Origin: Crossiella sp. SN42
GTDB lineage: Bacteria > Actinomycetota > Actinomycetes > Mycobacteriales > Pseudonocardiaceae
DNA: 64,000 bases
Assembly (NCBI RefSeq): GCF_023897065.1
Contig: NZ_JAMHIV010000008.1
Location: 1 to 64,000, forward strand
Direction of reading: 5' to 3'
The position numbers were made by a program, and so were the translations under genes. Of the stretch, positions 22,741-26,817 are shown one piece after another (positions within the stretch are counted from its first letter, which is position 1; each line of letters begins with the position of its first letter). Below the pieces are notes generated by a model. That model was given only the letters and a program-made list of their open reading frames with translations, ran no database searches and was not told the origin of the DNA.

Positions 22741-23424
22741 ATGGTCAGGGCTGGTTTGGACAAGAACCCGCGCGAAGTAGCCGAGATGTTCGACGGCGTC
22801 GCGCGGCGCTACGACTTCACCAACACGGTGCTCGCCATGGGCATGGACCGGCGCTGGCGGGCCAAGACCACCCGCGCGCTGGACCTGCGGCCGGGCGACC
22901 GGGTGCTGGACCTCGCGGCGGGCACCGCGACCTCCACCGCGGACCTGGCCAGCACCGGGGCCTGGTGCGTGGCCGCGGACTTCTCCTTCGGCATGCTGCA
23001 GCGCGGCAAGCGGCGCGGGCTGCCCATGGTGGCCGCCGACGGCCTGCGGCTGCCCTTCGCCGACGGGGTCTTCGACGCGGTCACCGTGTCCTTCGGGCTG
23101 CGCAACATGCAGGAGACCAGCCTCGCGCTGAGCGAGCTGGCCAGGGTCACCCGCTCCGGCGGGCGCCTGGTGATCTGCGAGTTCTCCCGGCCCACCTGGG
23201 GTCCGATGCGGCTGGGCTACCACACCTACCTGCGCGCCTTCCCGGTCATCGCGCGCCGGTTCTCCTCCAACACCGACGCCTACGCCTACCTGGCCGAGTC
23301 GATCAAGGCCTGGCCGGACCAGCGCGAGCTGGCCGAGCTGATCGCGGGCGCCGGCTGGGAGGACGTGGCCTGGCGCAACCTCACCGGTGGCGTGGTCGCC
23401 CTGCACCGCGCAGTGAAGCCCTGA
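22741..23424 (+). CDS. menG: demethylmenaquinone methyltransferase (MenG/UbiE)
   Basis: SAM-dependent methyltransferase, 227 residues, that adds the C-methyl group in the last step of menaquinone synthesis. The family signature [17 protein letters not shown] is near residues 22-38, the SAM motif [10 protein letters not shown] near 55-65, and [12 protein letters not shown] near 100. The ATG at 22741 has TACGCT six bases upstream, which suggests its own leaderless transcript even though the glycosyltransferase ends only 13 bases before. menJ follows after a Rex-type operator. Confidence 0.95.
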
Positions 23425-23432
23425 CCACCGAC

Positions 23433-23470
23433 TACACTCCGACTTGGGACTTCGTGAAGAAGTTCACAAG
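23433..23470 (+). promoter_or_regulatory. menJ promoter -10 with Rex-type operator
   Basis: TACACT at 23433-23438 is followed after 12 bases by TTCGTGAAGAAGTTCACAAG (23451-23470). This matches the Rex operator consensus TTGTGAA-N4-TTCACAA in 13 of 14 defined positions. The operator would cover the transcription start, as expected for repression. The nuoA site has the same hexamer, spacing and operator. Confidence 0.8.
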
Positions 23471-23496: not shown

Positions 23497-24795
23497 ATGA
23501 CCACCCCGACCAGCCGACGTCAGCCGCACGAGGACGCCGAGGTCATCGTGGTCGGCGCCGGTCCGGCCGGCTCCACCGCGGCCACCTACCTGGCCCGCGC
23601 CGGCCTGGACGTGCTGCTGCTGGAGAAGAGCGAGTTCCCGCGCGAGAAGGTCTGCGGCGACGGCCTCACCCCGCGCGGGGTGAAGCAGCTGATCGACCTG
23701 GGCATCGACACCAGGGAAGAGGCGGGCTGGCTGCACAACCGCGGCCTGCGCGTGGTCGGCGGCGGGGTCACGCTGGAGCTGGACTGGCCCGACCTGGCCA
23801 CCTTCCCGCCCTACGGCGTGGTCCGCCCGCGCCAGGACTTCGACGAGATGCTGGCCCAGAACGCGCAGCTGGCCGGGGCCCGGCTGCTGCAGAACACGCA
23901 CGTCACCGGCGCGGTCACCGACGACCGGACCGGCCGGGTGATCGGCGTGACGGCCAACGCGGGCAAGGAGAAGACCCCGGTCACCTACCGCGCCCCGCTG
24001 GTGCTGGCCTGCGACGGCGTCTCCGCCCGGCTGGCCCTCTCGGTCGGCCTGGAGAAGCGCGACGACCGCCCGATGGGCATCGCGGTGCGCCGCTACTACG
24101 AGTCCCCGCGCAGCAAGGACGACTACCTCGAGTCGCACCTGGAGCTGTGGGACAAGTCCAACGCCGGTGAGCCCAAGCTGCTGCCCGGCTACGGCTGGAT
24201 CTTCGGCATGGGCGACGGCACGGTGAACGTGGGGCTGGGCATCCTGTCCACCTCCAAGGCCTACGGCAAGGTTGACTACCGGCAGCTGCTGCGCTCCTGG
24301 CTGGACGGCACGCCGGAGGAGTGGGGCCTGCGCGAGCCCAACGCGATCGGCAAGGTCGGCGGCGCCGCGCTGCCGATGGGCTTCAACCGCACCCCGCACT
24401 ACCGCAACGGCCTGCTGCTGGTCGGCGACGCGGGCGGCATGGTGAACCCGTTCAACGGCGAGGGCATCGGCTACGCCATGGAAAGCGCCCGGCTGGCCGC
24501 CGAATGCGTCGTGCACGCCCTGGCCCGCCCGGAAGGCCTCAGCCGCGAGCGCGCCCTGCACCGCTACCCGGTGGCCGTCTCCGAGGCCCTCGGCGGCTAC
24601 TACCGGCTCGGCAACATCTTCAGCAAGCTGATCGGCAACCCGACGATCATGCGCACCGCCACCAAGTACGGCATGCCGATCAAGCCGCTGATGCGCTTCG
24701 TGCTCAAGCTGCTGGCCGGCCTGTACGACCCCAAGGACGGCGACGCGATGGACCGCGTGATCACCGCCGCCACCAAGCTCGCCCCGACTGCCTGA
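23497..24795 (+). CDS. menJ: menaquinone reductase (MenJ), geranylgeranyl reductase family
   Basis: FAD-dependent enzyme, 432 residues, that saturates one isoprene unit of menaquinone. The FAD-binding VVGAGPAGSTAA is at residues 12-23, followed by EKVCGDGLTPRG, which is typical of geranylgeranyl reductases. The second FAD motif, LLVGDAGGMVNPFNGEGI, is near 308-325. Position after mgtA and menG and before a polyprenyl diphosphate synthase (after the nuo operon) mirrors the mycobacterial menJ locus, which supports MenJ over chlorophyll or archaeal lipid reductases. Preceded by a Rex-type operator and followed by a strong terminator. Confidence 0.9.
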   Translation: MTTPTSRRQPHEDAEVIVVGAGPAGSTAATYLARAGLDVLLLEKSEFPREKVCGDGLTPRGVKQLIDLGIDTREEAGWLHNRGLRVVGGGVTLELDWPDLATFPPYGVVRPRQDFDEMLAQNAQLAGARLLQNTHVTGAVTDDRTGRVIGVTANAGKEKTPVTYRAPLVLACDGVSARLALSVGLEKRDDRPMGIAVRRYYESPRSKDDYLESHLELWDKSNAGEPKLLPGYGWIFGMGDGTVNVGLGILSTSKAYGKVDYRQLLRSWLDGTPEEWGLREPNAIGKVGGAALPMGFNRTPHYRNGLLLVGDAGGMVNPFNGEGIGYAMESARLAAECVVHALARPEGLSRERALHRYPVAVSEALGGYYRLGNIFSKLIGNPTIMRTATKYGMPIKPLMRFVLKLLAGLYDPKDGDAMDRVITAATKLAPTA

Positions 24796-24811: not shown

Positions 24812-24849
24812 GGCCCGGCCCGCGTCCGTTCCAGGACGCGGGCCGGGCC
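24812..24849 (+). terminator. hairpin terminator after menJ
   Basis: A perfect 16-bp stem (GGCCCGGCCCGCGTCC at 24812-24827 paired with 24834-24849) with a six-base loop, 16 bases after the menJ stop. It isolates menJ from the nuo operon. There is no long T tract, as is common in high-GC actinobacteria. Confidence 0.85.
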
Positions 24850-24963: not shown

Positions 24964-25001
24964 TACACTTGCCCATTGGAGTTCGTGAACGAGTTCACAA
25001 G
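24964..25001 (+). promoter_or_regulatory. nuoA promoter -10 with Rex-type operator
   Basis: TACACT at 24964-24969, then 12 bases, then TTCGTGAACGAGTTCACAAG (24982-25001), an almost perfect inverted repeat of the Rex operator type. The rest of the 342-base gap between menJ and nuoA holds the menJ terminator upstream and about 136 bases of leader downstream, with a second possible -10 (TACTAC near 25038). Rex control of nuo is established in Streptomyces coelicolor. Confidence 0.85.
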
Positions 25002-25137: not shown

Positions 25138-25503
25138 GTGCTCCACTCTTACCTCCCCCTCGTGCTGATGTTCTTGCTGGCCTTGGTGTTCGCCCTGGGC
25201 TCGGTCGCGGTCGCGCCGTACATCGGGCCCCGCCGGTACAACAAGGCCAAGCTCGACGCGTACGAGTGCGGAATCGAGCCCTCGCCCCAGCCGGTGGTCG
25301 GCGGTGGGCGGATGCCGGTCGCCTACTACCTGACGGCGATGCTGTTCATCCTGTTCGACATCGAAATGGTGTTCCTCTACCCCTTCGCGGTCACCGCGGG
25401 CCAGCTCGGCCTGTTCGGACTGGTAGAGATCGCCCTCTTCATCGGCACGGTCGGCTTCGCCTACGTCTACGTGTGGCGGCGCGGCGGCCTGGACTGGAGC
25501 TGA
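25138..25503 (+). CDS. nuoA: NADH-quinone oxidoreductase subunit A
   Basis: Membrane subunit of complex I, 121 residues, three transmembrane helices. The conserved KLDAYECGIEP (residues 37-47) and FDIEMVFLYPFA (75-86) motifs identify NuoA. GTG start. First gene of the 14-gene operon nuoA-N, all on this strand with gaps of at most seven bases or with overlaps. Confidence 0.97.
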   Translation: MLHSYLPLVLMFLLALVFALGSVAVAPYIGPRRYNKAKLDAYECGIEPSPQPVVGGGRMPVAYYLTAMLFILFDIEMVFLYPFAVTAGQLGLFGLVEIALFIGTVGFAYVYVWRRGGLDWS

Positions 25504-25506
25504 GTC

Positions 25507-26058
25507 ATGGGTCTTGAGGAGAAGCTGCCCAACGGAATCCTGTTGGCCAGCGTGGAGAAACTGGTCAACTGGTCCCGCAAGTCCTCGCTGTGGCCTGCCA
25601 CCTTCGGGCTGGCCTGCTGCGCGATCGAGATGATGACCACCGGCGCGCCGCGCTACGACCTCGGCCGCTTCGGCATGGAGGCCTTCCGCGCCTCCCCGCG
25701 CCAGGCCGACCTGATGATCGTGGCCGGCCGGGTGACCAACAAGATGGCCCCGGTGCTGCGCCAGATCTACGACCAGATGCCCGAGCCGCGCTGGGTGCTC
25801 GCGATGGGCGTGTGCGCCTCCTCCGGCGGCATGTTCAACAACTACGCGGTGGTCCAGGGCGTCGACCACATCGTGCCGGTGGACATGTACCTGCCGGGCT
25901 GTCCGCCGCGGCCGGAGATGCTGCTGGACGCGATCCTGAAGATCCACGCCAAGATCATGGACGAGCCGCTCGGGCCCAAGCGGGCCGCGCTGCGGGCCGC
26001 CAGCGGCGCGCGCACCGAGATGATCCCGTCCTCCGTCCGGTACGCCAAGAAGAAGTGA
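25507..26058 (+). CDS. nuoB: NADH-quinone oxidoreductase subunit B
   Basis: Subunit of the hydrophilic arm, 183 residues, that carries cluster N2, the electron donor to quinone. The Cys ligands are in LACCAIEMM (residues 36-37), GVCASSGG (near 102) and LPGCPPRPE (near 132). It starts three bases after the nuoA stop. A second, shorter NuoB is encoded at 53634. Confidence 0.97.
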
Positions 26059-26064
26059 TCGGCT

Positions 26065-26817
26065 GTGACTGACGCGAACCTCCCCGAGCCCAAGGGTGAA
26101 GCCCACAGCTCGGCGGACATGACCGAGGCCCAGCACGAGGAGCACCTCGCCGCTGGCGGTGTCGTGGCCGGCAAGAACCGCAAGGGCATGTTCAACGTCT
26201 CCGGCTCCGGCGACACCTCCGGTTTCGGCGGCCTGCGCCTGCCCGCCTACGCGCCCGCGCCGAGCGAGCGCCCCTACGGCGGCTGGTTCGACGAGTTCGT
26301 CGACGAGCTGTCCATGGCCATGGCGGAGAAGGGCATCCCGGCCGAGGCGGTCCAGCAGATCACCGTGGACCGCGGCGAGATCACCTTCTACGTCCGCCGC
26401 GAGCACCTGCTCGAACTGTGCCGGCTGCTCCGCGACGACCAGGCCCTGCGCTTCGAGCTGTGCAGCTCGGTCTCCGGCGTGGACTACGGCGTGGACGTGC
26501 CGCAGCGCCTGCACTCGGTCTACCACCTGACCTCGATGACCTACCGCCGCCGGATCCGGCTCGAGGTCGCCATGGACATCGAGGACCCGCACGTGCCCAG
26601 CGTGGTCGAGGTCTACCCGACCGCGGACTGGCAGGAGCGGGAGGCCTGGGACATGTTCGGCATCGTCTACGACGGCCACCCCGCGCTGACCCGGATCCTC
26701 ATGCCGGACGACTGGGACGGCCACCCCCAGCGCAAGGACTACCCGCTCGGCGGGATCCCGGTCGAGTACAAGGGCGCGGAAATTCCTCCGCCGGACCAGA
26801 GGCGGTCTTACTCATGA
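26065..26817 (+). CDS. nuoC: NADH-quinone oxidoreductase subunit C
   Basis: 30-kDa subunit of the hydrophilic arm, 250 residues. The signature [18 protein letters not shown] leading into [20 protein letters not shown] (residues about 190-225) is clear. The first 60 residues are a polar, family-variable extension common in actinobacteria. GTG start; end overlaps nuoD as ATGA. Confidence 0.96.

Follow-up and report, generated by a model that had tools for sequence, protein, structure and literature searches.

In Streptomyces avermitilis, Rex has direct control over rex, nuoA1 and wblE, as it bound all three promoters in gel shift, ChIP and footprinting experiments; its regulon comprises rex-hem, nuoA1-N1, wblE, cydA1, atpI, hppA and ndh2 (PMC5355995). 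The consensus of its binding site is TTGTGAAN4TTCACAA, and Rex bound probes that deviate from it at one or two positions better than probes that deviate at three (PMC5355995). The ROPs of nuoA1 and atpI lie upstream of the start site, whereas those of cydA1 and wblE lie downstream of it (PMC5355995). The text of that report mentions neither menaquinone nor geranylgeranyl, and the Saccharopolyspora spinosa Rex paper makes no mention of an operator, nuo or menaquinone. The menaquinones of actinomycetes are partly saturated in the side chain, e.g., MK-9(H4) in Geodermatophilaceae (PMC9686282). In Mycobacterium tuberculosis, the menaquinone reductase is the flavoprotein MenJ (Rv0561c). To our knowledge, no mechanism that controls the degree of menaquinone saturation is known.

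The window analysed here, a stretch of 64,000 nt on contig C78 of the 9.72-Mb genome of Crossiella sp. SN42, contains a Rex-type palindrome in front of a menJ-like gene (Table 1). The original prediction of a 13-of-14 fit to TTGTGAA-N4-TTCACAA was borne out, with a single mismatch in the 18-mer TCGTGAAGAAGTTCACAA. Its claim of a 12-base distance also agrees with the coordinates, as the gap between the TACACT hexamer and TTCGTGAAGAAGTTCACAAG (23451-23470) is exactly 12 bases. The predicted operator lies 28-45 nt 5' of the start codon, right after the conserved TA[CG]ACT motif, although a generic sigma-70 scan detected no promoter at the menJ-like gene. A second match, TCGTGAACGAGTTCACAA, was found 5' of nuoA, and its TTCG begins 12 bases after another TACACT, the same spacing as at the menJ-like gene. 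This twin does not appear in the original prediction. With up to three mismatches allowed, the window holds two matches; the mean over dinucleotide shuffles was 0.20, and none of them contained two. A chance palindrome, to which we attach practically no probability, is disfavoured by this count, both sites having only one mismatch, and ruled out by the conservation across many genera described below.

Table 1. Features of the menJ-nuo region of Crossiella sp. SN42, with positions counted in the window.
Feature	Position	Strand	Evidence or remark
menG (demethylmenaquinone methyltransferase), 5' neighbour	22741..23424	+	NCBIfam NF001241 368 bits, cut-off 327
TACACT, probable -10 element of menJ-like gene	23433..23438	+	TA[CG]ACT just 5' of the site in nearly all aligned relatives
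Predicted Rex operator of menJ-like gene (TCGTGAAGAAGTTCACAA)	23452..23469	.	One mismatch to consensus; conserved in relatives
menJ-like gene of the geranylgeranyl reductase family, candidate menaquinone polyprenyl reductase	23497..24795	+	TIGR02032 250 bits, cut-off 158.8
16-bp perfect hairpin 3' of menJ-like gene, probable terminator	24812..24849	+	-43.7 kcal/mol, best 50-nt window
TACACT, probable -10 element of nuo	24964..24969	+	12-nt spacing to operator, as at menJ-like gene
Second predicted Rex operator, 5' of nuoA (TCGTGAACGAGTTCACAA)	24983..25000	.	One mismatch to consensus
nuoA, first gene of the complex I operon	25138..25503	+	NCBIfam NF005922 172 bits, cut-off 155
nuoB	25507..26058	+	NF005012 256 bits, cut-off 116
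nuoC	26065..26817	+	NF005856 394 bits, cut-off 224

The product of the menJ-like gene is a full-length member of the geranylgeranyl reductase superfamily (TIGR02032), scoring above its cut-off; with MenJ it shares the flavoprotein family and a gene position beside menG. Among solved structures, the closest is that of an archaeal digeranylgeranylglycerophospholipid reductase (PDB ID 3oz2), whereas the genomic context in Crossiella is that of menaquinone and complex I rather than archaeal lipids or chlorophyll. The top NCBIfam match of the protein is the MenJ model MkRedMenJ (NF045655), and this is the only long match to that model in the genome, no other protein exceeding 38 bits. The "menJ" label of the original prediction is therefore right as to the best match, but the score of 253 bits is far below the NCBIfam MenJ cut-off of 700, so that the name, and any effect on menaquinone saturation, can be given only as putative. 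Given menG on its 5' side, complex I on its 3' side and the lack of a second long match in the genome, our best guess for the candidate function is that of a menaquinone polyprenyl reductase.

The genome encodes one Rex (PF06971, E 2.5e-19; NF003992, 382 bits against a cut-off of 226). Only five sites in the whole genome match the consensus with at most one mismatch, and four of them lie 5' of rex, wblE, the menJ-like gene and nuoA; allowing a second mismatch gives eight matches, against two for a reversed control pattern. The operator consensus of S. avermitilis is thus shared, and rex, wblE and nuoA carry the site in Crossiella too. The site before rex reads TTGTGCATGCGTTCACAA on the rex strand. 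At the WhiB-family gene that we read as wblE, the site TCGTGAAAGCATTCACAA lies 60 nt 5' of the start (L003:1501-1518) and is nearly identical to the S. avermitilis wblE site TCGTGAAAGCGTTCACAT (PMC5355995). By their predicted position, the Crossiella sites differ from the S. avermitilis nuoA1 and atpI ROPs, which are upstream of the start site; this speaks against the Rex reading, though the ROPs of cydA1 and wblE are downstream. In addition, cydA1 belongs to the S. avermitilis regulon, but the cydA locus examined here shows no site even when three mismatches are allowed. The fifth match (L004:1501-1518) lies 26 nt 5' of a gene resembling family-3 glycoside hydrolases, which has a sugar ABC transporter as its neighbour, and may be either a chance occurrence or an additional target.

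We also considered a CRP-type site, by which cAMP instead of NADH would govern the menJ-like gene and nuo. The CRP consensus is TGTGA-N6-TCACA, and the core CGTGA-N6-TCACA of the Crossiella site can be read as two CRP half-sites at equal spacing with one mismatch. However, the same motif also precedes rex and wblE, and CRP binding requires neither an A at position 7 nor a T at position 12. Among the relatives, albeit in sites picked by the Rex pattern, an A occupies position 7 without exception and a T occupies position 12 almost without exception. Together with the distribution of sites among genomes with and without Rex given below, this leaves control by CRP improbable.

Conservation was examined in 80 named loci with a homologue and 30 loci from further genomes of the order, scanning the region 5' of the menJ-like gene and the stretch that separates this gene from nuoA. 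A lack of the site before menJ in all close relatives, which the original prediction had named as evidence against itself, is not what these loci show. Outside Streptomycetaceae, the 330 nt upstream of the menJ-like gene contain a site of no more than two mismatches in 53 of 83 loci, counts that are not independent because some loci come from identical or very close species. Such sites were found in Saccharopolyspora, Actinopolyspora, Pseudonocardia, Actinoalloteichus and Streptoalloteichus, and further in Micromonospora, Dactylosporangium, Salinispora, Frankia and Actinopolymorpha; the promoter position is conserved in Pseudonocardiaceae, Micromonosporaceae, Frankia and Actinopolymorpha, and a TA[CG]ACT hexamer stands shortly 5' of nearly all of the relatives' sites. 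Where nuoA was in view, 73 of 75 loci carry a site in front of nuoA, the menJ-like gene or both, and the other 810,344 positions of these loci contain no such site. In 30 distinct sites, chosen with at most two mismatches and an unconstrained spacer, positions 3-7 and 14-16 are invariant and the spacer positions 8-11 hold no more than 0.19 bit; i.e., the arms are kept and the spacers vary freely. Two loci showed unusual arrangements. Two Rex-type sites 23 bp apart were observed 5' of the menJ-like gene in one member of the family (G188, L147:1501-1541). In another genome (G028, contig C3:6215-7843; L132 and L142), a pair of identical Rex-type sites flanks oppositely oriented pieces of a second menJ-like gene, as might result from misassembly or from an inverted duplication.

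The occurrence of sites is also linked to the presence of Rex. Among 200 genomes of the order, we counted the form TNGTGAAN4TTCACNA in the 173 genomes with Rex and in a contrast set of 24 near-complete genomes without it. Such sites are mostly missing where Rex is absent: the mean was 1.82 sites per genome with Rex and 0.375 without (Mann-Whitney p 4e-10), a contrast for which phylogeny accounts in part, as nearly all Rex-less genomes belong to one mycobacteria-like clade. Within the family that holds nearly all of them, five Rex-bearing genomes have 1-2 sites each, and all five carry a site at a wblE homologue. M. tuberculosis, the source of MenJ, keeps a CRP, and the sampled mycobacteria-like genomes mostly have no Rex; the depletion of sites in a clade of this kind argues against CRP. 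The palindrome in Crossiella thus has at most two mismatches, lies in a promoter region at a conserved place in a genome that encodes Rex, and is of a type whose occurrence tracks the presence of Rex, phylogeny explaining part of the link. We conclude from these comparisons that the 18-bp palindrome is very likely a genuine Rex binding site. The operator reading and the coupling to complex I in the original prediction are well supported by the rex gene with its own site, the nuoA twin, the wide conservation and the depletion in genomes without Rex.

The position of the operator goes with the layout of the genes. When the gap between the menJ-like gene and nuoA is below 260 nt, the site occurs only before the menJ-like gene in 33 of 35 loci and before nuoA in none; two Pseudonocardiales MAGs with a short gap (L041 and L051) have a Rex-type site before neither gene. 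When the gap is at least 260 nt, 35 of 40 loci have one or more nuoA sites, ten of those together with a menJ-side site, and five long-gap loci have the menJ-side site only. This pattern is most simply read as an ancestral menJ-nuo operon under a single operator, an operon that was later split in some lineages. The nuoA operators occur in tandem in many long-gap Pseudonocardiaceae, exactly 32 bp apart in 31 of 33 pairs (e.g., L016, L025, L026, L033, L114 and L118), and the Kutzneria pair (L027) is 20 bp apart. A spacing of 32 bp, about three helical turns, suggests cooperative Rex binding. In Crossiella, the probable terminator between the two genes has no T-run on the + strand, and a terminator scan also picks this hairpin, on the - strand. 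That a terminator splits the menJ-nuo unit in the relatives is a weak proposal, because the hairpins of loci that have a nuoA site and those of loci that lack one differed only in their medians (-22.95 versus -30.9 kcal/mol).

No menJ-side site was found in any of the 26 Streptomycetaceae loci, 18 of which have a weaker nuoA site, nor in Lentzea and several other Pseudonocardiaceae. Because of these lineages, Rex control at the menJ-like gene is not universal. The operator proposed in the original prediction is conserved, but what Rex controls in many relatives seems to be the whole menJ-nuo unit rather than menJ separately. This raises the question of whether the menJ-side site, even if real, serves complex I as a relic operator of the ancestral operon and has no role in tuning menaquinone, a reading that is compatible with Rex binding and disputes its purpose alone. 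It would fit the short-gap relatives, whose sole nuo operator is the site before the menJ-like gene, as well as Lentzea and Streptomycetaceae, which have nuo sites and no menJ-side site. However, in Crossiella, where nuo lies beyond the hairpin and has a promoter and an operator to itself, the menJ-side site is needless for nuo, yet 13 of its 14 positions are intact, and Streptoalloteichus (L031 and L032) retains both sites with the genes about 3-4 kb apart. We regard a mere relic as less likely than not.

Our preferred reading, which we hold to be highly probable on the present analysis, is that Rex represses the menJ-like gene and complex I until NADH rises, and that the two are separately controlled units in this genome. 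The operator would lie just 3' of the menJ-like gene's -10 element and cover the transcription start, predicted near 23445. With NAD+ dominant, Rex would, by analogy with S. avermitilis, occupy the operator and block the promoter; with rising NADH, it would be released and the menJ-like gene transcribed. The nuoA operator would act likewise, so that complex I would rise together with the putative menaquinone polyprenyl reductase. In many relatives, one operator before the menJ-like gene would serve the apparent menJ-nuo operon, and in Crossiella the hairpin and the second promoter would split this unit into halves, each with its own operator.

Rex control of nuo is already known, and the menJ-like gene would represent a new target in a known regulon. 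Rex control of menJ is nowhere described in the papers searched, which did not include the 2012 comparative Rex-regulon study and the original S. coelicolor paper, and menJ may have been listed as a Rex target in silico before. We put forward, with somewhat less than even confidence, the broader proposal that a rise in NADH/NAD+ induces complex I together with a menaquinone polyprenyl reductase, that menaquinone saturation is redox-regulated in many non-Streptomyces actinomycetes, and that lineages in which the operon was split either kept the link through a second operator or lost it. The operator appears to move with the operon boundary, and Crossiella sp. SN42, Streptoalloteichus, Lentzea and Saccharopolyspora provide a natural setting in which to compare coupled with uncoupled control. 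Many soil actinomycetes appear, from their sequences, to control the menJ-like gene and complex I jointly, and a conserved NADH-sensing operator before the sole candidate reductase would provide a testable answer to how menaquinone saturation is controlled.
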